From Paludibacteraceae bacterium (GTDB lineage Bacteria; Bacteroidota; Bacteroidia; Bacteroidales; Paludibacteraceae): a stretch of DNA of 60,152 bases. Where the stretch lies: NCBI GenBank assembly GCA_017417025.1, contig JAFPZY010000024.1, positions 1 through 60,152 on the forward strand, read 5' to 3'. The notes beneath the pieces are model-generated. The model was not told where the DNA came from. It made no database searches and worked only from the letters and a program-made list of their open reading frames with translations. This document shows, piece by piece, positions 1,122 through 38,303 of this stretch. The number at the start of each line of letters is the position of its first letter. Within the stretch, counting starts at the first letter, position 1. A program made the position numbers and the translations under genes.

Positions 1122-2402
1122 TCAGTCTTTTAGGCAGCCGATAGGGACGACCAGCGTGCCGTCTTTCATCGCGTAAGCATATATGCCCGTGGCGGTCAGC
1201 ACCATACGGAAAGCCGGTTCGCCCGCTTTGTCAGTGTCAATCTTACGGACTAATTTGTCAAGCGACCGTTGTGCCTCTTCTATCCTGTATGAGCCGCCGA
1301 GTTTGATTTCGACAAGTCCGTAGCGACCGTCACGCAATTCGATGACGGCATCACATTCCGTCCCGTCCTTGTCGCGATAGTGATAGACCTTGGCATCTAT
1401 AGCATCGGCATATACCCGAAGGTCGCGTACCGCCATTGTCTCAAAGAGCAAACCGAAGGTTTCAGTATCGTTCATCAGTTTGTCCGGCGTAACACCCAAA
1501 GCGGCAACAGCAATACTGGGATCTACAAAATAGCGGTTGTCGCTTGTCCGAATGGCAGTTTTCGAGCGGATATGTACACTCCATGCGGGCATATCTTCCA
1601 CCACAAAAATGCTTTCCAATGCATTCAGATAGGAGGCAATGGTATGTTCCGAAAGGGAAGATTCGTCGTTAGCGGACATATCGGCCCGGATGGTGGTCAT
1701 TGGTGCTTGTGAACCTTGCAGGCGACCTAATGAACGGAGAAGTAGTCTTGTGCGTTTGGGATTGCGCAAGGTATTGTCAGTGCGTGTTATATCCGACTCG
1801 GAGAGTGCATCCACATAGTCGTATGCAGTCTGAAGCGCGTCTGATGATGATTGCGACAGCGTGGCAGGCCAACCTCCACGGCACAGCATATAGGCTATAT
1901 CCTGCAACTCGTGCCTGCTCTGACCCAGAACGTGTTTCTGCTCGTCAAACAGTCTGCCGAGACTGACCTCGCCTGTTGATTCCCCCGATTCCCACAGACT
2001 CATTGGGCGCATACGCAGACGCGAATAACGCCCTGTGCCGGTATGAAAGAGCTTGCTTGAATCAGTAGGTACGGCAGAACCGGTAAGGATAAACTGACCT
2101 TTATGCTGGCGCATATCCACTTCCGAACGGATAGTGTCCCATAGTTCGGGAACGGTCTGCCACTCGTCAAACAGACGGGGGACATCGCCGGACAGAATAT
2201 AAGACGGCGCGGTAAGAATCATATCTCTGCATCGGTTCAACTCTATAGGATTACCTAACATCATACTGCTTTTTGCCACCTGCAAAGCCGTGGTGGACTT
2301 ACCGCACCATTTAGGACCTTGAATGAGTAACGCACCTGCACTTTGCAGACGTTTTGCAAGAAGTCTGTCTGCAATTCTTGATTTGTAAGTTGTTGTTTCC
2401 AT
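1122..2402 (-). CDS. solitary AAA+ ATPase with DUF4143 nuclease-like C-terminus (copy 1)
   Basis: This 426-residue protein belongs to the abundant AAA_14/DUF4143 (COG1373-type) ATPases, whose biological role is not established. The Walker A motif GPKWCGKST lies at residues 29-37, Walker B LFDE at 77-80 and a sensor-like FILTGSA near 104-110. The middle resembles a winged-helix region. The C-terminus has an acidic residue (TECDAV, about 345) followed by VEIK (E365, K367), the spacing of a PD-(D/E)XK nuclease fold. The start at 2402 lies about 20 bases after a promoter of the Bacteroidota type. No partner gene is adjacent, so it is a stand-alone gene. Upstream is a five-unit 23-bp repeat array found nowhere else in the window. 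Nuclease activity is inferred from motif spacing only. Confidence 0.85.
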   Translation of the reverse strand: METTTYKSRIADRLLAKRLQSAGALLIQGPKWCGKSTTALQVAKSSMMLGNPIELNRCRDMILTAPSYILSGDVPRLFDEWQTVPELWDTIRSEVDMRQHKGQFILTGSAVPTDSSKLFHTGTGRYSRLRMRPMSLWESGESTGEVSLGRLFDEQKHVLGQSRHELQDIAYMLCRGGWPATLSQSSSDALQTAYDYVDALSESDITRTDNTLRNPKRTRLLLRSLGRLQGSQAPMTTIRADMSANDESSLSEHTIASYLNALESIFVVEDMPAWSVHIRSKTAIRTSDNRYFVDPSIAVAALGVTPDKLMNDTETFGLLFETMAVRDLRVYADAIDAKVYHYRDKDGTECDAVIELRDGRYGLVEIKLGGSYRIEEAQRSLDKLVRKIDTDKAGEPAFRMVLTATGIYAYAMKDGTLVVPIGCLKD

Positions 2403-2422
2403 ATCCTATTGAATTGATGCTG

Positions 2423-2454
2423 CAAAGATAATGCATATATTTCAGATAACCAAA
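2423..2454 (-). promoter_or_regulatory. promoter of ATPase copy 1
   Basis: On the minus strand TTTG (2454-2451), exactly 20 bases, then TATCTTTG (2430-2423) match the Bacteroidota housekeeping promoter. The start codon follows about 20 bases downstream. The 23-bp repeat array begins about 38 bp upstream of the -33 element. Confidence 0.8.
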
Positions 2455-2491
2455 TAAAAATGATTATTTTTTCTTAATTGGCGAATTTTTA

Positions 2492-2593
2492 TTGTACGAA
2501 TTGTCGGAAATATTTTGTACGAAATGGCGATTTTTTATTGTACGAATTGTCGAAGATATTTTGTACGAAATGGCGATTTTTTTATTGTACGAA
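2492..2593. repeat. 23-bp phased repeat array upstream of ATPase copy 1, 5 units
   Basis: The core ttgtacgaa recurs at 2492, 2515, 2538, 2561 and 2585 (spacings 23, 23, 23, 24). Read on the minus strand, two unit types alternate: CGACAATTCGTACAATAAAA and CGCCATTTCGTACAAAATAT, giving A-B-A-B-A, then a decayed B nearest the gene. The array runs to about 2600. It is intergenic, AT-rich, and lies just behind the promoter of the adjacent ATPase. Confidence 0.85.
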
Positions 2594-2736
2594 TTGTCGG
2601 AAAGTTGATACATGGTTAGTCTGTTTTTTGTTGCCTCCAACGGCTGAAATACATTACTAAATATGGCTGCTAAGTCATAACCTGTCGGAACAATATGATT
2701 TTCTCAATATGAACACTTTGTATGGGCGCATGTGGG

Positions 2737-2834
2737 TGCACATTGTCTGTGCGCATGTATTCACCTCTTAGGGGCGCATGTAGTAGCATCATAGGGGTGC
2801 ATGTGGTCACATCGTAGGGGCGCACCTTGTGTGC
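2737..2834. repeat. repeat cluster with taggggcgca core, 23-bp period
   Basis: The motif taggggYgca recurs at 2769, 2792 and 2815, exactly 23 bp apart. The segment 2737-2778 aligns with 914-955, and 2800-2824 is identical to 931-955. The cluster lies between ATPase copies 1 and 2, downstream of the latter. No gene overlaps it. Confidence 0.75.
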
Positions 2835-2891
2835 GTTCTGCCGATAGAAAAAACGGACGGGCAAGATGTCACAGGGTACGGAAAACCGCAA

Positions 2892-2917
2892 CCGGAGTAC
2901 GCTGGCATCCTGCCTGC
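2892..2917. repeat. palindromic element, left flank of ATPase copy 2
   Basis: It begins ccggagtacgctggcatcc and ends tgcctgc. It matches 4621-4645 apart from one inserted and one changed base, in the same orientation, so the pair brackets ATPase copy 2. The copy at 4629-4645 has perfect 7-base arms (gcaggca and tgcctgc). Confidence 0.75.
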
Positions 2918-3047
2918 AAAGAGATTGATAAAGATAAATCCGCTTAATCTGCGGACAATAAAAATATCAGCGCAGCTGACCAACACACAAAAAAAACATC
3001 AGCTCAGCTGCCAAAGCGACCTTTGACGTACTGAAAACAAACAACAT

Positions 3048-4379
3048 TTACAAAAACGGTGTGAAATACACCGGTACGCAGACGGTCTGCCCGTCATGGG
3101 CATAGTCCTTGGTATAAAGCAATATCCGCTCGCCTATGCGCTGTGAGAACTTCTCGCAGAACACGTCTAACGACTTGTGCGTCTTGTAGCCGGACGACTT
3201 GACCTCTATAGGTACGAGTTTGTTGCCCCGCGACAAGAGGAAGTCAATCTCGTAGTTCTTGTTGCCGTTGCCGGTCGGGAAGGTGTAGTAATACAATTCG
3301 TTGCCTGCTGTCCGCAGCATCTGCGCCACAAGGTTCTCATAGACATAGCCGAGTTTCGCCTCAAGTTTGTCGGAAAGCAACTTGTTGTATATCACATTCT
3401 CGGTGTACTTCTTGTCCCAAAAGGCGAGGGTGACGAACAGCCCTGTGTCCGCCATGAACATCTTGTAGGAGAACAGCGAGCGGCTGAGGTTCATTCCCAC
3501 ATTCGGGGCGGTGACGTGGTATGCCATCATTACCGTCTTGCTGTCTTCCAGTTCTGACACGGTCTCCGCTATCCGTTCCGCAGTCTGGTTCGGAATAACG
3601 CTGCCTATTTGGTAGCGGTTGGCGTTGCTGTTCAACATGGAAGGTATGGCGGCAAAGAGCTTGGCGATACGTCCCGTGGAGTCTATCCGGTGGAAATCAT
3701 CGAAATAGAGTTTCAGAATCTCGCGCTTGACATCATCCACCGCCCGCATATCGTTGCTGTTGAGATATGCTTCTACCGCCTGCGGCATACCGCCGATAAG
3801 CATATACAGACGCAGTTCACGCATCCAAGTCCGGTGGACACCTTCTCCGAAGGCGCGTTTCATATTGAATGCCTGTTTGAGCAATTGGGGCGAATCTTTT
3901 TTGCCGGTTGCCCACAGGAACTCCTCAAAGTCCATCGGATAGAGCGTTTCTGAATGTTCTTCGCTCGGAATGACTATGTTTTGGATGTTCTTGCGAATGG
4001 AAATAAGCGAACCTGTTTCTATATAGTCATACCGTCTGTCCTTGACCAAGTGCTTGATGGCCTGACGGGCAGGCGGAAAGTTTTGCACTTCATCAAACAC
4101 AATCACTAATTCCCGCTCATATAAAGACACACCGGTTATGTTCTTCAAATTGAAGAAGAATATATCCATGTTCATCATCTCATCAAACAAATCTTTTATT
4201 TGTCTTGAAGGCTTGGAGAAATCAATCAGGATATACGACTTGTACTCTCGTTTGGCGAACTCCTCCACAAGAGTGGATTTGCCTACACGCCTTGCCCCTT
4301 CAACCAACATAGCGGTTCTTCCTTGCTTCTCATTCTTCCATTGAAGAAGAGTGTCATACAGTTTGCGTTTGAATATCAT
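3048..4379 (-). CDS. solitary AAA+ ATPase with DUF4143 nuclease-like C-terminus (copy 2)
   Basis: A 443-residue protein of the same architecture as 1122-2402 but only distantly alike in sequence. Walker A GARRVGKST is at residues 28-36, Walker B LVIVFDEV at 91-98, and IETGS follows near 120. The C-terminal part has YEIDFLL then PIEVKSS (E392, K394), the D...ExK pattern of PD-(D/E)XK-like folds. The start at 4379 is set by the promoter whose -7 box ends 28 bases upstream. It is monocistronic. Its promoter overlaps a 33-bp-period repeat set unlike those of the other two ATPases. The role is unknown; mobile-element maintenance or defence are inferences. Confidence 0.85.
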   Translation of the reverse strand: MIFKRKLYDTLLQWKNEKQGRTAMLVEGARRVGKSTLVEEFAKREYKSYILIDFSKPSRQIKDLFDEMMNMDIFFFNLKNITGVSLYERELVIVFDEVQNFPPARQAIKHLVKDRRYDYIETGSLISIRKNIQNIVIPSEEHSETLYPMDFEEFLWATGKKDSPQLLKQAFNMKRAFGEGVHRTWMRELRLYMLIGGMPQAVEAYLNSNDMRAVDDVKREILKLYFDDFHRIDSTGRIAKLFAAIPSMLNSNANRYQIGSVIPNQTAERIAETVSELEDSKTVMMAYHVTAPNVGMNLSRSLFSYKMFMADTGLFVTLAFWDKKYTENVIYNKLLSDKLEAKLGYVYENLVAQMLRTAGNELYYYTFPTGNGNKNYEIDFLLSRGNKLVPIEVKSSGYKTHKSLDVFCEKFSQRIGERILLYTKDYAHDGQTVCVPVYFTPFL

Positions 4380-4406
4380 AATGCGTAACTTTTTGATTTA
4401 CGGCTG

Positions 4407-4438
4407 CAAAGATACTGCTTTTGTCGGAATCCCACAAA
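4407..4438 (-). promoter_or_regulatory. promoter of ATPase copy 2, overlapped by its repeats
   Basis: Minus-strand TTTG (4438-4435), 20 bases, then TATCTTTG (4414-4407). The TTTG is part of the gene-proximal 11-bp repeat ATTTGTGGGAT, so a protein bound to that repeat would compete with RNA polymerase. Confidence 0.8.
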
Positions 4439-4505
4439 TTTATTTTTATAAAATTACAATAATTCCACAAATCATTTTCACAAGAAGTACAGGGATTCCA
4501 CAAAT
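4429..4505. repeat. 11-bp repeats at exact 33-bp spacing (3 copies)
   Basis: attccacaaat occurs at 4495 and 4462, with the variant atcccacaaat at 4429. The spacings are exactly 33 bp, and the 22 bases between copies are not conserved. This makes short repeats separated by variable spacers at the promoter of ATPase copy 2. Confidence 0.8.
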
Positions 4506-4520
4506 CTAATCTACTAAAAG

Positions 4521-4574
4521 TGCGTAAAATCGCAAAATGTTTTCGATGGAATCTGCGTAAAATCGCAAAATGTT
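4521..4574. repeat. 21-bp repeat at 33-bp spacing (2 copies)
   Basis: tgcgtaaaatcgcaaaatgt (plus one t) begins at 4521 and at 4554, identical in both and again 33 bp apart. Its left part, tgcg-taaaat-cgca, is an inverted repeat. It continues the 33-bp phasing scheme of 4429-4505 with a different motif. Confidence 0.8.
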
Positions 4575-4620
4575 GTTTGTGTTCAGTATGACCGATATAG
4601 ATAAACCAATGATAAGCCCT

Positions 4621-4649
4621 CCGGGTACGCAGGCATCCTGCCTGCGATA
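4621..4649. repeat. 29-bp palindrome-bearing element
   Basis: It starts ccgggtacgcaggcatcctg and ends gcgata. It is the upstream flank of ATPase copy 2 (direct pair with 2892-2917). It also forms an inverted pair with 10013-10041, 28 of 29 bases matching, around the surface-protein gene. Confidence 0.8.
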
Positions 4650-4727
4650 GATAGACAAATGAAATAGCATAATGCAACTAACAGACTACAAATAACTTAA
4701 AAATATTAACCCAAAATTAAAATCATC

Positions 4728-7700
4728 ATGAAAAAACTCTTTTCTCTCTTCGTGCCGCTAATGGCACTGTTCCTCACCCTGCCTATTCAGGCGGCTACAT
4801 ATTATTATAAGAATGAGGCCGATTTGTCAAATTCGGAGCAACTTGCTAAATGTTTAAAAATCGAAAACACAAAAGGGTATACAGGTTCTACTAATAATAC
4901 TTTTACTGTGCGGATTCAACTTATAGGTGCGTGGAGCTCAACAGAAATGAGCAATTTGGGTCTTAAATGTGCATATGGAATGGATGGAGATGTTTGTATA
5001 GGTACATTTGCTACAGCGACAGAACCTATGTGGAGAGATATTACTTCATTTACTACAAAAACAGCAAATGCGCTATATCACTATGGAATAGGTCAGTTGA
5101 CCTATTCAGGAGCAGCAAAATCTTCGAGTGACTATTCTAATAATAAGAACACTATATATCTTTACGCTAATCCGAAGAACATCACATTTTCTAAAGATAA
5201 ATATATTCAAATATGTATCTATTCAACAGGTAGTTTTGTGGAATGTAAAATAAGTGGTGATATGATGTCTATGGTATATGGACTGAATTGTGCAACAAAT
5301 GAAAACTACAATACAATTCCTAATGATTACCAATTTTATAAATTTTTCACATCATACGATATAAATCAATCAAAATATGCATCAGGGGGAAGTACTAGTA
5401 CAATCATTGATTGTTCAGATCTTGTTTTATCTGCTACTAATTTAACAGTTGGGTGTTATGAGAGTATGTTTGATGATTTGGAACTGAATAATGGTTCAAC
5501 TTCCACTAATACGATGTCTGGTCCGCAAATCAAAGCAATGTCTCTCAAAGATTGTAGCGGAGTTATAACTGATTGCTGCAAAAATATGTTTAACGGCTGT
5601 ACTTACCTGAAAAGTCTTACTACATCTTTCCTTGATTGGGGGGACACGCCATCTAATGTTCCTACTGCCAACTGGATAAGCAGCACACAAGAAATAACTT
5701 TTAACTGCCCCTCTACCCTTCCCGAAAAAAAAGATGCCAGTCACATGGGTAAAAATGGTCAGAGGACTGCGACAGTGTCTTCAGATGTCTATATCTTCAA
5801 TGTCTCCGAGAGCGGAGGCTCATGGGGGGGGCAGTGTAATGATTATTATCGCACAACAGCGGCTCCTTCTGTTCCAGATCCTACGGGTGCAACAGCTTTT
5901 GCTGGTTGGTACTCAGAGGATGGTGAGCTCGTCACATTGTCTGAATTACCCGCCCCATCAGGTGTTACTACCTATTATGCCGAGTTTACAGGTTCTGTTA
6001 CAGTTCCTTATACAATCACTTTCAAGGCTGAAAACGGGGATGTATTACAAACAAAGAAGTGTCGCCCCGGACACATACCTTCCTACACAGGTAGCACTGA
6101 TATTAGCAGAGCAGGCTATGTGCCCGTTTGGTCTCCGGCAATTGTTGCAGCAACGGGGAATGCAGAATATCAAGTGACATACGTAGAACCGAACTTTTTC
6201 ACAATCAAGAATACAGGTAATGCTGATAAAAGTGTTACAATTAGGAAAGGTAAGGGTACAACAACGCAACCTGAATTTACATATCGCGTTTATTATGCAA
6301 ATGGTACAATAAAGACTACATGGACTGATATAACTATTAGCAATACAAACGGCACATCTATAACTGTTCCCGCTAACGGAGGAAAGATACAAATATATGG
6401 AGATAATGCAACTTTAGGAACGGGAACAGGAGATTATACCAAATTTACTTTTGCACAAAGTAGTTCTTTTGAAATAAGTGGTAATATTCTGTCTTTAGTA
6501 TCTTGCAAGGATGGAACAAATTTTGACGAGAATTTCGACATGCTTGATTATTGTTTCTACGGACTGTTTTCTGACAATATAGGAACAAGTAATGCTACGC
6601 ATCCAGTTGTTGATGCCAAGAAATTGGAATTGCCGTCTTCCACAGTATCTTCTTATGGTTATGCACTAATGTTTAGTACTTGTAAAGGTCTTACAAATGC
6701 TCCCCAGTCGCTACCTGCGACAGATTTAGGTACTTATTGTTATTTTCAAATGTTTTATCAATGTATCGCACTAACATCTGCACCTTATTCACTGCCAGCC
6801 GAATCATTGCCGAATTATTGTTATAAAGAGATGTTTTCTACTTGCAGTATTTTAGAGAAAGCTCCGGATATTTATGGCACTTCATATGGCACATATTCTT
6901 TGCAGCAAATGTTTGAAAACTGTAGCAATTTAAAACAGATTCGTTCATACTATGATGGCACATGGGGTGCGCAAACAAATTATTGGGTACGCTCTGCTTC
7001 TGCTTCTACTTCAGCTGCATACTATTGTCCAAGGACAACGAATCGTAGTTGGGGAACAACAACTTATTATAACAAAATACCAAGAGATGCGAACAATCAC
7101 TGGACGGTTTATTCCTATAATGTAACCTTTGTGCCGGTAGGAGGCAACTGGTCGGATGACACAAATGAAAACAAGCAGTTTACTTGGCGGACTGATGTCA
7201 GCGATATAGAGGGTTTACTAACATCGGAAGCAGAGAGGGTAACAGGCTATTATAGTGATGAACTTTGCACAAGCGAATTAGATAATGCGGCAATTCAAAC
7301 TATCTTGACTACTCAACCGTCAAATGACAATACCACCTACATTTATGCCAAGATTTCCGCTACCAGTTCCTACGCCCTAGATTGGGATGCCAACGGAGGT
7401 GCACTGTCTGGCGACTATACCGCTGCGGGGGATTATGAAGCGGGAGCAACTATCACGGCTCCCACCGCCACCCGTGCAGGATATACATATACCTGGGATC
7501 CCGCCTTCACAGGTACGATGCCGGCTGCCAATACAACATACACAGCGCAATGGACGCAGAAGAGTTACAAACTAAACCTCACTTCTGGCGGAAACGGCAC
7601 GGTGACCCGCAATGATAACGGCGACAGCGAAACGGTGAAACGTTATAATGAGACCGTTACTCTGACACCTTCGGAAAGCACAGGCTACCACTTCGATAGT

Positions 7701-9455
7701 TGGAGCGGCAACGGTGCTGCGTATGTAAGCAAAAATGTGTTTACCGTACCCGACGGAGAGGACAACACCACCTACAATGTGCAGGCAGTGTTCGCTCCCA
7801 ACACCAACACAGCTTATACAGTCAAGCACTACAAGCAGAACCTGGCATTGAATGGTTATGAAGAAGTGACAGAAGACAGACAGAACCTGTCCGGCACAAC
7901 GGCAACTGCTACTGCGGCAGCAGCCAAGAGTTACACGGGCTTTACGGCACAATCTTTCGAGCAGGGGACAATCGCCGCTGACGGCTCAACGGTGGTAAGT
8001 ATCTATTACAACCGTGACAAATACACCGTCACAGTCGTCAAGAACGAAAACGCATACGGTACTCTGTCTGGAGAAAGCGAAAACATAGTAACTGTGACAA
8101 ACGTTCCTTACGGCACGGAGATTACCACAGGTACTGGCGATAATGCCAACAAAGTGACTATCAACGGCACACAAGTCACTGCCACCAAGCACGCAGACGA
8201 CGCGCAGTACACCTACGCGTTTAACGGTTGGACTAACGGAACAGAAACGGTAACAGGTGCATTGACCGTCACCGCCAACTTCACGCAGACTACCAAGCAA
8301 TACACCTTGACTGTCAATGCAGGTGCCAATGGCAACGTGAAAGGCGGCGGCATATACAACTACGGCGCGTCGGCAGAACTCACAGCCACACCCGCAGAGG
8401 GTTATCACTTCGTATCATGGTCGGATGGAGGCGCACAGACCCACTCTGTGATAGTGACAGACATTACAGCCGAACAAACCTATACTGCCACCTTTGCACC
8501 GAATGCCACGTACTACATGCTTACAATCTCGGCAGGTGAAAACGGCACAGTGGACACGAGCGTTAACGGAAGCAAGGAAGAAGGCACAAACGTTCAGATA
8601 TCGGCTACTGCTAACACTTTCTATCAGTTTGACCAATGGTCCGACGGCAACAAAGATAACCCGCGCACCGTGACCATGAACGAGGACAAGACCCTGAACG
8701 CCTCTTTCAAACTGGCAGACGTGATAGAACTGGAAGACCAGCACGAGGTAGGTGCCGCATGGTGGACAGACTACAACAACCTGCGGACAACTCTCGGAAG
8801 CACAACCGTGACTGTACAATACAACCGCACAATGGAAGCAAACAAGTGGCATGTGGTGGCACTGCCGTTTGAATTCAATCTGATGCAACATAAGTCGCAC
8901 CCGTTCAGCAGACATATCTATGAAATGAAAGATGCCACATACACGACGGACGGCTATCTTGATTTCAATTTCATTCCGATGACGACGATAATGACTCCCA
9001 ACAAACCATACATTTTCTACAGCGAGACCCCTGTCAATAATGTGTCATTCGCTGATGTGGAGTTGAATGCTGTGGAATCATATACGGGAGACGACGTGAA
9101 ATTCGCTGTAACAGGCGGTGAACTGATGTTCCGCAACACCACATACCGCGAAAAACTCAATTCGGCAGGAGACGAGAACAAAAGCATAATTTATATCTAC
9201 GACAACCGCCTGTACTACCCGAAGACCAATGAAATCTGGATGCGCGCTTTCAGAGGTTATTTCAAATTGGATGTCGACAACATCTATTATGTCACACCTC
9301 GTGTAAGGATAATAACCGGCGGACAAGTGACAACGGCACTTGAGGCTGCAGAGTCTGGCAACGGCACAGAAGTACGCAAGTACGTTGAGAGCGGCATATT
9401 GGTTATTGAGCGCAATGGCGTGAAATACAACGCTCAAGGCGGAAGAATTGAGTAA
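4728..9455 (+). CDS. large secreted surface protein with cysteine-rich LRR-like blocks and InlB-type repeats
   Basis: This 1575-residue protein begins with a clear signal peptide (MKKLFSLFVPLMALFLTLP, cut probably after QAA). It has two related blocks with CYxxMFxxCxxL repeats (about residues 237-300 and 604-740). Each block is followed by a wing such as AFAGWYSEDGE...YYAEF. From about residue 880 to 1340 there are InlB/Listeria-Bacteroides-type beta repeats (WDANGGALSG, YHFDSWSGNG, YHFVSWSDGG, YQFDQWSDG). The final residues (VESGILVIERNGVKYNAQGG) resemble the short C-terminus of many Prevotella-type exported proteins, suggesting surface delivery. The N-terminal half is AT-rich and the C-terminal half GC-richer, so it looks mosaic. 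A G8 tract at 5824-5831 could switch it by slippage. It is probably an adhesin; the ligand is unknown. No clear promoter is visible upstream. Confidence 0.8.
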   Translation: MKKLFSLFVPLMALFLTLPIQAATYYYKNEADLSNSEQLAKCLKIENTKGYTGSTNNTFTVRIQLIGAWSSTEMSNLGLKCAYGMDGDVCIGTFATATEPMWRDITSFTTKTANALYHYGIGQLTYSGAAKSSSDYSNNKNTIYLYANPKNITFSKDKYIQICIYSTGSFVECKISGDMMSMVYGLNCATNENYNTIPNDYQFYKFFTSYDINQSKYASGGSTSTIIDCSDLVLSATNLTVGCYESMFDDLELNNGSTSTNTMSGPQIKAMSLKDCSGVITDCCKNMFNGCTYLKSLTTSFLDWGDTPSNVPTANWISSTQEITFNCPSTLPEKKDASHMGKNGQRTATVSSDVYIFNVSESGGSWGGQCNDYYRTTAAPSVPDPTGATAFAGWYSEDGELVTLSELPAPSGVTTYYAEFTGSVTVPYTITFKAENGDVLQTKKCRPGHIPSYTGSTDISRAGYVPVWSPAIVAATGNAEYQVTYVEPNFFTIKNTGNADKSVTIRKGKGTTTQPEFTYRVYYANGTIKTTWTDITISNTNGTSITVPANGGKIQIYGDNATLGTGTGDYTKFTFAQSSSFEISGNILSLVSCKDGTNFDENFDMLDYCFYGLFSDNIGTSNATHPVVDAKKLELPSSTVSSYGYALMFSTCKGLTNAPQSLPATDLGTYCYFQMFYQCIALTSAPYSLPAESLPNYCYKEMFSTCSILEKAPDIYGTSYGTYSLQQMFENCSNLKQIRSYYDGTWGAQTNYWVRSASASTSAAYYCPRTTNRSWGTTTYYNKIPRDANNHWTVYSYNVTFVPVGGNWSDDTNENKQFTWRTDVSDIEGLLTSEAERVTGYYSDELCTSELDNAAIQTILTTQPSNDNTTYIYAKISATSSYALDWDANGGALSGDYTAAGDYEAGATITAPTATRAGYTYTWDPAFTGTMPAANTTYTAQWTQKSYKLNLTSGGNGTVTRNDNGDSETVKRYNETVTLTPSESTGYHFDSWSGNGAAYVSKNVFTVPDGEDNTTYNVQAVFAPNTNTAYTVKHYKQNLALNGYEEVTEDRQNLSGTTATATAAAAKSYTGFTAQSFEQGTIAADGSTVVSIYYNRDKYTVTVVKNENAYGTLSGESENIVTVTNVPYGTEITTGTGDNANKVTINGTQVTATKHADDAQYTYAFNGWTNGTETVTGALTVTANFTQTTKQYTLTVNAGANGNVKGGGIYNYGASAELTATPAEGYHFVSWSDGGAQTHSVIVTDITAEQTYTATFAPNATYYMLTISAGENGTVDTSVNGSKEEGTNVQISATANTFYQFDQWSDGNKDNPRTVTMNEDKTLNASFKLADVIELEDQHEVGAAWWTDYNNLRTTLGSTTVTVQYNRTMEANKWHVVALPFEFNLMQHKSHPFSRHIYEMKDATYTTDGYLDFNFIPMTTIMTPNKPYIFYSETPVNNVSFADVELNAVESYTGDDVKFAVTGGELMFRNTTYREKLNSAGDENKSIIYIYDNRLYYPKTNEIWMRAFRGYFKLDVDNIYYVTPRVRIITGGQVTTALEAAESGNGTEVRKYVESGILVIERNGVKYNAQGGRIE

Positions 9456-9463
9456 ACAACGGT

Positions 9464-9497
9464 TTCAGTCCCGCAGGCTGCAGTCTGCGGAACTGAA
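9464..9497 (+). terminator. strong hairpin after the surface-protein gene
   Basis: ttcagt-c-ccgcag and ctgcgg-a-actgaa pair around an 8-base loop, 9 bases after the stop codon. No T-run follows, so it may stabilise the transcript or separate it from the small gene at 9539 and not fully terminate. Confidence 0.5.
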
Positions 9498-9538
9498 TAA
9501 GGCAAAACAAATGTGAAACATAAAAACAGAAAAAAGAT

Positions 9539-9676
9539 ATGAAAGTTTATTTTGCGCCGGAAACAGCGATAGTAAAGACCTTCTCAACCAATGTTCTTGC
9601 AGGAGCTTCCGGAGGATTGGATTTTGAGTTCAAGCCCGAACCAAGTACCAATAACCCGCCTAAAGAGGATTTGTAA
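9539..9676 (+). CDS. 45-residue peptide with an LAGASGG motif
   Basis: The ATG at 9539, preceded by an A/G-rich ribosome-binding stretch (aaaaaag), encodes 45 residues ending in TAA at 9676. The sequence begins MKVYFAPETAIVKTFSTNVL, continues AGASGG, and ends in a hydrophilic tail rich in P, N, K and E. Short Bacteroidales proteins with the pattern Y-x-x-P near the start and LAGSG or LLAGS near residue 20-25 are frequent, often close to surface-protein genes. I recognise the pattern but know no established function. The Gly-rich site resembles a double-glycine leader cleavage point, which would make it a secreted peptide; this is inference. It follows the large surface protein by 83 bp in the same orientation. 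Confidence 0.55.
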   Translation: MKVYFAPETAIVKTFSTNVLAGASGGLDFEFKPEPSTNNPPKEDL

Positions 9677-9841
9677 GAACAAAGTTCAGCCAGTCGGCAC
9701 ACAGCCGCCAAAAGTGATTTTGTGACATTCAGAACCTGCATTTGAAAGTGCAGGTTCTGTGTTGTCTTCTGTGGCTGAACAGCTTGCCAGTCCGTCTATC
9801 GACTATCCTGGATTCTATGCCAAATGTGTGTGATTTTTGGC

Positions 9842-9957
9842 GGGAAATGCAAAAAGTGAAATGCAAAAAAAAGTTGTATTTCAGGTGATAGATTTCAGCT
9901 GTTTCTTCCCTCTATATTAATGAGAGGGGTATGTTGGATGGGTTTAGTCGAAAGCAT
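9842..9957 (+). repeat. approximately 110-bp interspersed repeat, copy 1
   Basis: The order is gggaaatgc, an A-run, aagttgtatttcaggtgata, gatttcagctgttt, then ccctct-atattaatg-agaggg, a 6-bp hairpin, and gtatgttg. Related copies lie at 10085-10205 and 11630-11757, with a fragment of the hairpin region at 12025-12047. Confidence 0.75.
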
Positions 9958-10012
9958 CCACAGAGGTAGTTAATAATGAATAGTTAATAATTAATATTTC
10001 AAAGTGAACTTT

Positions 10013-10041
10013 TATCGCAGGCAGGATGCCTGTGTACCCGG
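10013..10041. repeat. 29-bp element, inverted copy of 4621-4649
   Basis: It starts tatcgcaggcaggatgcctg. Its reverse complement equals 4621-4649 except for one base. The two copies face each other across 5.4 kb that contains the surface-protein gene and its small partner. Confidence 0.8.
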
Positions 10042-10084
10042 TGACAGCCTGCGACAGAGAACAAGGCGCAAATATCAGGCACAA

Positions 10085-10205
10085 ATATCAGGTAATGAGG
10101 GGGAAAAGCATTTTTTTTTTGAAAAAAGTTGCTTTTTAGGTGATAGATTTTGCCATTTTTTTACCTTATATATGGAGGGGTATGTTGTTAAGGATTAGTC
10201 GAAAG
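10085..10205 (+). repeat. approximately 110-bp interspersed repeat, copy 2
   Basis: It shares aatatcaggta, a purine-rich block, gaaaaaagtt, ttaggtgatagattt and tatggaggggtatgttg with the copies at 9842 and 11630. An 11-base T-run lies inside it. It forms the downstream member of a direct pair around ATPase copy 3. Confidence 0.75.
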
Positions 10206-10299
10206 ACAAAAGAAGAAAGTCCGTCCTCCGCTTAATCTGTGTAATCTGCGGACGGCCGTATGAGGTAATTATGTCTCTGATGTTATACGGATATTTTCA

Positions 10300-11442
10300 T
10301 CAGAATAGTTCCCCCGCCCAGAGTTGGCGCAGGAAGTCGTTCACATACATTATTTCGATGGAGTCGTCAGTGGTACGGGTTATGCGGTCGAGTGATACAA
10401 GTATCTTGCGGCACTCAGGATGCTCGGTGGCGAAGGTGCGCAGACCTTTCAGGTGCTTGTTCTGAATGTCCTCGGTTGATTTAATTTCAATGGCTGCCTT
10501 TGCATCTCCGATTACCGCATCTACTTCAACTCCGTCTTTTGTCCGCCAATACGACAACCGGTTGTCATTGTGCGTGTAGCCTATGTATGCAATCAGCTCT
10601 TGTATTACAAAATGCTCGAAAGCATGCCCGTATTCGGCAGTGCCTCTTGTTATTTCCTTGCGATGCAACAGATAATTGACCACGCCGATATCAAAGAAAT
10701 AGAATTTTGGCGCTTGCACAATCCGACGCTTTACCCTCTTCGTGAAAGCCGGAATAATGTGCCCCACAAGGGTGTCCTCCAGAATGGAGAAATATTCCTT
10801 GACGGTATGTGCGTTCACCCCGCAATCTGATGCGATATTATTGTAATTGACTATTTCCCCATCGGTCAAAGCGGCGGCATCTAAAAAGCTCTGAAAGTTG
10901 TAAAGGTTGCGCACTAACGATTCCGCTTTTATTTCCTCGCGGAGATATACATCAATATAAGCCGACAGACCGAGATAGGCGTTTTTCATTACATAGTACG
11001 GCGGCAGCATCCCGTTGTTCAATGCCTTGTCTATGTCAAAATCAGGTATCTCGGCACTTACTAACGGATACAGATAACAAGGTATTGCGCGCCCGCCCAA
11101 TGTGTTATACCCCTTGCGGCGCAACTTGCGGGCGCTGCTGCCGCACAGGATGAAGCGGATGCCGGTCTGGGCTATCAGACGATGAACCTCGTTGAGCATC
11201 AGCGGCACTTGCTGTATTTCGTCAATGATTACAATAGTGTTGCTGTCGTAGTTTTTGTATTTCTCATATAGCAGATTCGGCCTGCGTGAATATTGGGCCA
11301 AAGTAAGTGTGTCAAGCAAATCGATGTACTCCGCGTTTGGGAATTGCTGTAACAACAGAGTGGTTTTACCTGTCTGCCTTGCGCCAAACAGGAACAAACT
11401 TGTCTCTAACTCATTGTCTAACTTGGGGTAACGAGTGAACAT
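10300..11442 (-). CDS. solitary AAA+ ATPase with DUF4143 nuclease-like C-terminus (copy 3)
   Basis: A 380-residue ATPase with Walker A GARQTGKTT at residues 20-28, Walker B TIVIIDE at 69-75 and FILCGSSARKL near 108-118. A HTH-like middle part (about 185-245) follows. The C-terminal segment GVEVDAVIG...AAIEIKS (E319, K321) has PD-(D/E)XK spacing. It shares the architecture but not the close sequence of the other two ATPases in this window. The promoter lies 138-169 bp upstream, so the message has a leader of about 130 bases that contains a 32-bp-period repeat array. It is monocistronic and bracketed by direct copies of an approximately 110-bp repeat. The role is unknown. Confidence 0.85.
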   Translation of the reverse strand: MFTRYPKLDNELETSLFLFGARQTGKTTLLLQQFPNAEYIDLLDTLTLAQYSRRPNLLYEKYKNYDSNTIVIIDEIQQVPLMLNEVHRLIAQTGIRFILCGSSARKLRRKGYNTLGGRAIPCYLYPLVSAEIPDFDIDKALNNGMLPPYYVMKNAYLGLSAYIDVYLREEIKAESLVRNLYNFQSFLDAAALTDGEIVNYNNIASDCGVNAHTVKEYFSILEDTLVGHIIPAFTKRVKRRIVQAPKFYFFDIGVVNYLLHRKEITRGTAEYGHAFEHFVIQELIAYIGYTHNDNRLSYWRTKDGVEVDAVIGDAKAAIEIKSTEDIQNKHLKGLRTFATEHPECRKILVSLDRITRTTDDSIEIMYVNDFLRQLWAGELF

Positions 11443-11496
11443 GGTGGTGTTGTGGTTTGGTCTCTTATCCGGTATCTGTGCTGTTGTGCTGCATAA

Positions 11497-11574
11497 TTGG
11501 CAGCCAAATCAGCAGTATAACTTCCGTTTTGGCTGCTAATTGTGCAGTGTAGTTCCGCTTTTGGCAGCCAAATC
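11497..11574. repeat. 32-bp phased repeat array in the leader of ATPase copy 3
   Basis: ttggcagccaaatc at 11497 and 11561 and the variant ttggctgctaattg at 11529 are each exactly 32 bp apart. The interval sequence is also partly conserved (gcagt...ttccg). ttggc-a-gccaa is a perfect palindrome. The array starts at about the transcription start and lies wholly in the untranslated leader. Confidence 0.8.
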
Positions 11575-11579
11575 CGCTG

Positions 11580-11611
11580 CAAAAGTACAACAAATAATCG
11601 GAATATGCAAG
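11580..11611 (-). promoter_or_regulatory. promoter of ATPase copy 3
   Basis: Minus-strand CTTG (11611-11608), 20 bases, TACTTTTG (11587-11580). Predicted transcription starts near 11573, at the edge of the repeat array. Confidence 0.7.
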
Positions 11612-16704: not shown

Positions 16705-16743
16705 TCCCGCACCAATAACTGCTGCATAAGCCGTAACTGCCCA

Positions 16744-16853
16744 AGAGCGGGACAAGAGCGGGACAAGAGCGACTCAGGAGCGACTCAAGAGCGAGACAAG
16801 AGCGACTCAAGAGCGGGACAAGAGCGACTCAAGAGCGAGACAAGAGCGGGACA
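16744..16853. repeat. 11-bp tandem repeat, 10 units
   Basis: Ten consecutive 11-mers of the form AGAGCGRSWCA (three agagcgggaca, two agagcgagaca, the others agagcgactca or ggagcgactca, with no indels). Two decayed units follow (aaaattactca, aaaactactaa). It begins 40 bp after the toxin stop and ends about 150 bp before the next promoter. Confidence 0.9.
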
Positions 16854-17001
16854 AAAATTACTCAAAAACTACTAAAAAACTGCTTTGTGACTGACAAAGA
16901 ATACGCCCGATGATAGTCGGGTGTATTTGTTCTGCTTTTTGACAATTTGTCACCAATGTTGTCTGTTTTTGCAGGTATGTGCTCTTTTTGCTACTTTTTT
17001 C

Positions 17002-18857: not shown

Positions 18858-18897
18858 CCTGCGCGGCAGTCAAACGGCGGAGAGGCGGACAGCGCGA

Positions 18898-18974
18898 GGG
18901 TACTGCAAGGGTACTGTGAGGGTAGCGCAAGGGTAGCCTAAGGGTAGCCTAAGGGTAGCGCAAGGGTAGCTGAA
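18898..18974. repeat. 11-bp tandem repeat, 7 units
   Basis: Seven contiguous 11-mers: gggtactgcaa, gggtactgtga, gggtagcgcaa, gggtagcctaa twice, gggtagcgcaa, gggtagctgaa. It lies 41 bp after the stop of the OmpA-type gene and before the fimbrial operon. Confidence 0.9.
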
Positions 18975-19104
18975 AGGGGACGGACAAACAAAGACAGAAA
19001 ACAGAAGAAAAGGGCATAGCCCTGCAAACAACAGAAATAAAGGCAAGACCTTATAATTAACCAAATTTATTAACCAACCAAAATTAAATTAACTAACTAA
19101 AGTT

Positions 19105-37929: not shown

Positions 37930-37984
37930 AATCACCTACTAATCACCTACTAATCACCTACTAATCACCTACTAATCACCTACT
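37930..37984. repeat. 11-bp tandem repeat, 5 perfect units
   Basis: aatcacctact is repeated five times without a mismatch. Perfect identity implies recent expansion or active homogenisation. Confidence 0.92.
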
Positions 37985-38029
37985 ATCAGCAGCCGGCATT
38001 CAGCGCAGTTGTACAGGCTGGAAGGTGGT

Positions 38030-38303
38030 AGAGTCAAGACGGGGGGGTGTAGAGTCAAGACTGGAGGGGCGTAGAGTCAAGATGGGAAAGTGAGAGAGCC
38101 AAGACGGGAGAGTGGGAGAGCCAAGACGGGAGGGGCATAGAGTTAAGATTGGAAAGTGGTAGAGTCAAGACGGGAGAGTGGGAGAGCCAAGACGGGAGAG
38201 TGGGAGAGTCAAGACGGGAGGGGTGTAGAGTCAAGACGGGAAAGTTGGAGAGCCAAGACGGGAGAGTGGGAGAGTCAAGATTGGATGGGGGTAGAGTACA
38301 GGC
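38030..38303. repeat. 22-bp tandem repeat, 13 units
   Basis: agagYcaaga occurs at 38030, 38051, 38073, 38095, 38117, 38139, 38161, 38183, 38205, 38227, 38249 and 38271, with a decayed copy at 38293. All spacings are 22 bp except the first (21). The typical unit starts agagccaagacgggagagtg. The unit is twice the 11-bp length of the other arrays, and it contains a G7 run at 38041-38047. Confidence 0.9.

Follow-up and report, generated by a model that had tools for sequence, protein, structure and literature searches.

A family of solitary bacterial ATPase-nucleases, three members of which (g1, g2, and g3) are located in a 60,152-nucleotide stretch of DNA from a Paludibacteraceae bacterium (GCA_017417025.1, contig JAFPZY010000024.1; the whole of this stretch is termed the window), was found to be paired with private, phased repeat arrays at the promoters of its own genes. 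The pairing of such an enzyme with a private phased operator was confirmed to be widespread, with a residue-to-base correspondence that is partly readable, and is stronger than the first-pass annotation had proposed. Since single residues of the proteins track single bases of the repeats, each protein most likely recognizes and controls its own gene. It is considered highly probable that each ATPase reads its own array, as that annotation had suggested and as both the enrichment of the arrays and the residue-base co-variation support, and it is reasonably likely that the outcome of binding is autorepression; the same degree of likelihood is assigned to the explanation as a whole, in which the ATPase would bind its own operator array and repress itself.

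All three genes lie on the reverse strand, g1 at 1122..2402 (426 amino acids, aa), g2 at 3048..4379 (443 aa), and g3 at 10300..11442 (380 aa), and each of them encodes an AAA_14 plus DUF4143 protein recognized by Pfam with scores above the curated cut-offs (54-80 bits versus 27 for AAA_14 and 67-125 bits versus 28.1 for DUF4143), which upholds their first identification. The profiles of PDC-S01 (PADLOC phage defence candidate, single gene 01) match all seven family proteins scanned, including g1, g2, and g3. The likeness of the D...ExK pattern to PD-(D/E)XK nucleases, which had also been pointed out, is borne out by residue conservation in the clade of about 430 aa (the 430-aa clade), where E338 is kept in 135, D366 in 133, E379 in 135, and K381 in 134 of 137 proteins, together with the Walker residue K31 in all 137, and by the presence of D and ExK in the window genes (EIK in g1 and g3, EVK in g2). 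Searches for solved homologues gave none with phmmer and only the Midasin P-loop plus weaker noise with a profile search. The own genome (2.18 Mb, 89% complete) contains 16 DUF4143 places, and the copy number of the family ranges from 0 to 31 per genome. In three own-genome members, L010 (on contig C24), L011 (C17), and L012 (C27), ExK is replaced by EVG, so their nuclease is probably dead; a 33-bp array is still present at two of the three.

The arrays at the three window genes are all read on the reverse strand. The g1 array (2475..2599), with a period of 23 bp, is composed of five TTCGTACAA-centred units, with TTCGTACAA at 2492, 2515, 2538, 2561, and 2585 (steps of 23, 23, 23, and 24), and one degenerate unit, with two unit versions alternating. 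The g2 array (4427..4574), with a period of 33 bp, harbors two kinds of unit: distally, TTTTGCGATTTTACGC occurs twice (4522 and 4555, step 33), and proximally, ATTTGTGG occurs three times (4432, 4465, and 4498, step 33). The 96% homologue L111 has the same mixed array, and the distal core is also present in L116, whose protein is 67% identical; a switch of specificity may have been captured here in progress. The g3 array (11496..11577) lies downstream of the promoter box and has a best lag of 32 bp; its three elements, all nearly palindromic and of the TTTGGCTGCCAA type, are TTTGGCTGCCAA at 11497 and 11561 and TTAGCAGCCAAAA at 11527. The -7 boxes matched by the pattern TAnnTTTG, which we take to be the Bacteroidota-type promoter box, are located at 2423..2430 for g1 and 4407..4414 for g2 (both TATCTTTG) and at 11580..11587 for g3 (TACTTTTG), in agreement with the promoters first assigned. 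When 250 bp upstream were scored against 500 dinucleotide shuffles, the repeats reported at 23, 33, and 32 bp proved significant at lag 23 for g1 (p=0.002), lag 33 for g2 (p=0.002), and lag 32 for g3 (p=0.03). The initial statement that the repeats are private to each gene stood in part: they differ among g1, g2, and g3, but relatives share the period and part of the unit.

In the own genome, p<=0.01 was obtained at 14 of the 16 DUF4143 places, the others being g3 (0.03) and the gene on C24 (0.24). The g3 array is weak alone, and 15 of 29 loci of its clade are significant at lag 31 or 32. The truncated gene on C11 gives a lag of 24 if GTG is taken as its start and of 33 (score 44) if ATG is; at this place (L007:9756-10275) a DUF4143 gene lacking the ATPase domain is directly preceded by the strong 33-bp array, as if the array had been joined to mid-gene by a deletion. 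Among 80 control open reading frames (ORFs) of the own genome, each with at least 200 bp upstream, 22 also scored p<=0.01, 14 of these at lag 21-22, a consequence of the many 11-bp tandem repeats of this genome, and the two controls at lag 32-33 both read away from an ATPase array. The lag itself therefore matters. A scan of about 1 Mb from three genomes, in which ATPase-like ORFs were defined by an in-house profile and the stretches of G017 and G050 were picked around ATPases, with ATPase and other ORFs drawn from the same stretches, revealed intergenic arrays of period 31-34 upstream of 17/48 ATPase-like ORFs versus 4/775 others (Fisher 2.5e-19), all four of the latter being divergent neighbours of an ATPase array. 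The period of 22-24 is unspecific by itself (5 ATPase ORFs, 17 others), and the case of g1 thus rests on its relatives.

These relatives were collected by searching 178 genomes of the genus with each of the three proteins, the counts including the window genes. Each clade keeps a period of its own. In the g1 clade, 27/30 loci of a first set were significant, 25 at lag 23, and 40/40 of a second set, 38 at lag 23, so that 63 of 70 loci have a period of exactly 23 bp. The first set of the g2 clade gave 28/29 significant loci (26 at 33, two at 34) and the second 29/40 (26 at 33, two at 32, one at 29), or 56 of 69 loci at 32-34, and in the g3 clade 17/29 were significant (13 at 32, two at 31, two at 22). 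The downstream controls were significant in 5/30, 5/29, and 4/29 loci of the three clades, with scattered lags. The first sets comprise 88 scored loci of 90, L124 and L163 having too little upstream sequence.

A third clade, reached by a query in named genomes, extends over several phyla. Only the best 80 of at least 520 confirmed places were kept, and the 55/77 significant loci, all at lag 32 or 33, are therefore no random sample (L228, L237, and L249 were dropped); within these best 80 places, the Bacteroidota account for 26/30 and the others for 29/47, and the downstream regions were significant in 7/74, again at scattered lags. The non-Bacteroidota members include, by record titles, Firmicutes, Treponema, and alphaproteobacterial, kiritimatiellal, and cyanobacterial metagenome-assembled genomes, among more. 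At lags of 22-24 or 31-34, 122 upstream versus 7 downstream regions were significant among the 162 loci of the genus first sets and the third clade with both sides readable, and 123 of the 127 significant arrays in these sets have lags of 22-23 or 31-34, near whole helical turns. Moreover, 61 of 69 further loci of the 430-aa clade from one bacterial family were significant, 60 of them at 32 or 33. The enrichment of phased repeats upstream of other DUF4143 ATPases, which the first-pass annotation had proposed as a check, was thus observed in both the clade sets and the genome scan, and the proposal survived the refuting conditions that had been set for it. In the subfamily of about 385 aa, drawn from the best Pfam hits (56 of 59 scored; in L022 and L024 no ORF was found and L040 was omitted), direct arrays were significant in only 15/56 loci; a palindrome (p<=0.02) was found in 18/41 of the array-less loci, and several of these palindromes span about 33 bp around positions -50 to -17, as exemplified by GGACAAATTGGGAGTTCAATTCCCAATTTGTCC at L063. 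The family was also matched by tblastn in 12/50,697 phage and 63/72,556 plasmid records, and an array of lag 32 or 33 (p<=0.01) accompanies the gene in 5/8 fetched phage or plasmid records, including plasmids of Acinetobacter towneri and Fusobacterium animalis; the array of a Glaesserella parasuis plasmid gave p=0.04. Neighbours seen on such plasmids are a site-specific DNA methyltransferase (L402, Glaesserella parasuis), a nucleotidyltransferase with a DUF262 protein (L401, Segatella copri), and an overlapping RNA 2'-phosphotransferase gene (L407, Fusobacterium animalis).

In the 430-aa clade, the repeat unit is about 28 bp long with the consensus TACAAAAAttcggccgaAAAAGTGTAAT. Its right part is constant, its core (in lower case) is private, and its left part is either rich in A or a mirror of the right one. 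Successive spacings are 32 or 33 in 87/100 cases, and the units are oriented with the gene in 59/75 and against it in 16/75. When 0.69 Mb of the own genome was scanned, 13/14 units were confined to their own array, and the unit from C21 had two near matches elsewhere, with 2 mismatches. Cores were shared by 0/32 within-genome versus 30/829 between-genome pairs, a difference that is not significant alone and in which the between-genome set has near-duplicates; the absence of cross-talk between paralogues is only consistent with these data.

The arrays are set in a defined register with the promoter. A TAnnTTTG box within the last 130 bp is present in 47/62 gene-oriented Bacteroidota-type arrays, and in 29 of these 47 its first base coincides with unit base 24, the TA of the box being that of the terminal TGTA of the unit. 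The most frequent position of a TATAAT-like element in Firmicutes is 67-68 bases past the unit start (a loose test allowing at most one mismatch). In the g1 clade, 32-45 bp separate the end of the array from the box that follows it in 19/26 loci, and in the g2 clade 12-44 bp do so in 22/28; in the g3 clade, the box precedes the array end by 54-90 bp in 14/17 loci, and the array therefore starts about at the box. An operator role is compatible with every one of these geometries, and repression would be the simplest effect. The earlier proposal had left the choice between an operator and a marker of self; the fixed promoter register favours the operator.

A link between protein and repeat was provided by background-corrected mutual information, calculated for every residue against every base (numbered from 0) with 200 row permutations. 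For the 430-aa clade (82 genes, 75 with a unit, 68 used; residue numbering of C36), residue 387 alone exceeded every permutation maximum, with 0.407 at base 8 and 0.332 at base 6 versus a top maximum of 0.287. Lys387 occurs with T at base 8 in 22/23 genes and Arg in 13/14, while Gln occurs with G in 16/24 (C in 4, T in 4) and Asn with C in 2/2. A held-out set of 57 genes, scored with an unaltered unit model (of the 69 further loci, 11 were dropped for more than 90% identity and one for lack of a unit), showed T8 in 33/41 with K/R/H versus 3/12 with Q/N (Fisher 7e-4). On a tree of all genes, 19 independent K/R/H versus Q/N pairs gave 14 differences as predicted, none reversed, and 5 otherwise. 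Near-minimal pairs were also encountered in this and the g1 clade (L217/L300, L219/L259, and L381/L383): the cores of L217 (K387, TTCGTCCTT) and L300 (Q387, GTCGTCCTT) differ at base 8 only. Residues 389 and 271 of this clade looked good in tables and remained below the 200 full permutations, and neither is claimed; R389 occurred with T10 in 4/4 training and 7/7 held-out genes, yet under the permutation maxima.

In the g1 clade (69 of 70 genes used), two pairs exceeded every permutation maximum (0.260): base 1 scored 0.546 with residue 345, and base 10 scored 0.302 with residue 253. At residue 345, K is found with G in 36/37 genes, S with C in 18/19, A with C in 4/4, R with G in 2/2, and N with T in 5/7, and D253 is found with C at base 10 in 19/19. 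Nine independent pairs differ at residue 345, and base 1 differs in five of them (one Lys gene having T, not G), the other four being three same-class swaps (S/A twice, K/R) and one exception (N/K); by comparison, base 1 differs in 38/503 pairs with the same residue 345 in the same identity range. Between L383 and L381, which are 92% identical, residue 345 changes from S to N and base 1 from C to T. Window g1 itself has K345 with G at base 1; the codon of Lys345, placed from the sequence, is at 1368..1370, and that of His253, in the winged-helix region and co-varying with unit base 10, at 1644..1646, both on the reverse strand. The co-variation of repeat sequence with the winged-helix region that had been suggested as a check was thus found at g1 residue 253, and the further sites fall in loops of the nuclease domain, residue 345 preceding the catalytic Asp and residue 387 of the 430-aa clade following ExK.

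Array and gene also travel together. The DNA common to window g2 and its homologue L111, which is in another genome, begins 213 bp upstream and stops precisely at the stop codon; beyond these limits, the match is confined to pieces of 81 and 29 bp. Thirteen distinct pairs are at least 95% identical over the gene (two of them share L160). Homology ends within 25 bp of the stop codon in 8 of these pairs, and in 7 of these 8 the upstream edge is at -130 to -300 with unrelated flanks. The block shared by L133 and L134 runs from the first repeat to the stop codon, those of L160-L162 start upstream of the promoter rather than at the array edge, and the flanks are kept in L330/L332 and L127/L129. Since the block is shared despite differing flanks, array and gene have been inherited together, and they have moved between genomes as one block. 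A clean empty site was not found for the one cassette considered, where six relatives share the left flank and homology stops before the cassette edge. L342 and L343 are near-identical cassettes. A sequence that precedes the array of L342 follows the gene of L343 as its reverse complement, which would suit a cassette placed in opposite orientation at a related site.

Based on these observations, the DUF4143 ATPase is predicted to be a sequence-specific binder of its own upstream array, in which a helix of the winged-helix region and a loop of the C-terminal PD-(D/E)XK domain would read a site made up of the constant part and the private core. As the sites are spaced by two helical turns (22-23 bp) or three (32-33 bp), the protomers would be aligned along the same side of the double helix, with cooperative binding. 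Given that the array touches or overlaps the core promoter, binding would most likely repress transcription of the gene itself, so that an ATP-dependent nuclease would be kept low and paralogues would be insulated from each other.

Several results weigh against this picture. The gene on C24 and appreciable fractions of the clades have no significant array (22/77 in the third clade, within its best 80 places, 12/29 in the g3 clade, and 11/40 among the new g2-clade loci), and the shuffle test found none at the fetched Bacteroides and Vibrio plasmid genes. The position of the array varies by clade, upstream of the box for g1, overlapping it in the 430-aa clade, and after it for g3, and the g1 arrangement would also suit activation. 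The independent pairs of the g1 clade are few, and co-variation in the g2 clade (59 of 63 genes, six distant cousins having been left out beforehand) is unconvincing even after 40 more loci, with 0.285 versus 0.279 in 15 permutations; residue 369, listed in the co-variation table of that clade, is placed in the loop matching g1 345. The two co-varying sites per clade account for only part of the core.

Other explanations were weighed against the same evidence. The array might be an end or recombination site by which the ATPase-nuclease moves array and gene as a one-gene mobile element, any promoter effect being secondary. The seven near-identical pairs with unrelated flanks, the L133/L134 edge at the first repeat, and the variable copy number would suit such an element; this reading is nevertheless unlikely, given that units are absent from the 200 bp downstream of the gene in 67 loci, no second end or clean empty site was seen, the L160-L162 blocks do not start at the array edge, and arrays persist at two of the three EVG members. 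It is likewise improbable, and slightly more so, that the array marks self and the nuclease cuts or spares DNA by its presence, as a restriction enzyme would. The base-tracking residues do stand beside the nuclease motif, but the sites were found only at the gene in the 0.69 Mb scanned and keep a fixed promoter register, and a co-resident site would be cut unless protected, with no methylase consistently adjacent among the neighbourhoods seen.

It is very doubtful that the array is transcribed and that the resulting repeat RNA keeps the protein in check, in the manner of type III toxin-antitoxin systems. A repeat array upstream of a nuclease gene is common to both, and the period is near that of ToxI, about 36 nt; the g1 array, however, lies upstream of the promoter box, the 430-aa-clade array overlaps the box, both unit orientations occur, and the co-variation falls in DNA-contact-like regions. 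The least credible alternative, to the point of being negligible, is that the arrays are ordinary tandem-repeat background. Although 22/80 control regions scored p<=0.01 and arrays of 7 and 11 bp are common, the control lags are mostly 21-22, the period of 31-34 is confined to ATPase arrays, and relatives in other phyla keep the period; this explanation is refuted for the 32-33 class by specificity and for the 23 class through the relatives. Binding of each ATPase to its own operator array, with autorepression, is preferred.

The arrays and the residue-base correspondence predict for each protein its target, the place of that target, and the substitutions that would change its preference. If the autorepression reading is true, an abundant immune candidate would carry its own regulator inside the effector, part of its specificity would be readable from sequence across bacterial phyla, and a reason would be offered why up to 31 paralogues share one genome. 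More speculatively, and with odds that we place well below even, the PDC-S01 proteins might be self-reading single-gene immune sentinels, NLR-like ATPases whose winged helix and nuclease domain would, at rest, occupy private promoter arrays, and for which silencing and sensing would be one act. Stripping of the protein off the DNA by phage takeover, DNA damage, or competing DNA would derepress the gene and free the nuclease, and the private cores would act like incompatibility groups, a newcomer with the core of a resident being silenced on arrival, which would drive core diversity while array and gene travel as one cassette.

Apart from the ATPase arrays, the window contains intergenic tandem arrays of 11 bp and its 22- and 33-bp multiples at 99-144, 16742-16854, 18891-18978, and 37930-38297, and nearly four perfect copies of the 20-bp repeat AACATCTATGCAAAGACAAG at 479-554. 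A 1575-aa protein with divergent InlB B-repeat domains (4728-9455) is transcribed divergently from g2 and shares its intergenic region.

Within the literature searched, outside which fell most subscription papers and all preprints, arrays upstream of DUF4143, COG1373, or PDC-S01 genes are undescribed, and the earlier statement that ATPase-plus-cognate-array units had not been reported stands within that scope. PDC-S01 has been described as an ATPase fused to a PD-(D/E)XK domain and is reported to rank fourth in frequency among prokaryotic defence systems and candidates, most such candidates awaiting validation (PMC12988326). The window genes match its profiles and share this fusion, and the accessible part of that account mentions no cognate array, operator, or DNA specificity. 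A regulatory parallel is RptR, which represses a defence locus and whose binding sites, three direct repeats in its own promoter, overlap the -10 box (PMC12255303). The likeness resides in direct repeats set in fixed register with the own promoter, here in 29/47 arrays. The difference is that the repressor is, for RptR, a small dimeric protein of its own that acts on repeats of 9 bp, whereas here the ATPase-nuclease itself is the predicted binder and the units recur every 23 or 32-33 bp.

In comparison with the STAND/NLR ATPases (CED-4, plant resistosomes, Avs5) and the archaeal SSO1545 and PABY2304, the window family has no sensor repeats or partner protein, and a shared fold would show no function. 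Orc1/Cdc6 and iteron-binding initiators are AAA+ proteins with a winged helix that act on repeated sites, often beside their own gene, and DNA-bound Orc1 structures ranked next after 2qen in Foldseek, with low TM-scores (0.26-0.27 on the query); the ATPases described here differ in possessing a nuclease domain and in having sites at a promoter, private to each paralogue, and no origin. In ToxIN, a type III toxin-antitoxin system, a repeat array also precedes a nuclease gene, between promoter and gene, but the g1 array lies outside that interval and the 430-aa-clade arrays across the promoter; the g3 arrays do lie after the promoter box, unlike those of g1 and the 430-aa clade, and the nuclease fold differs by Pfam.

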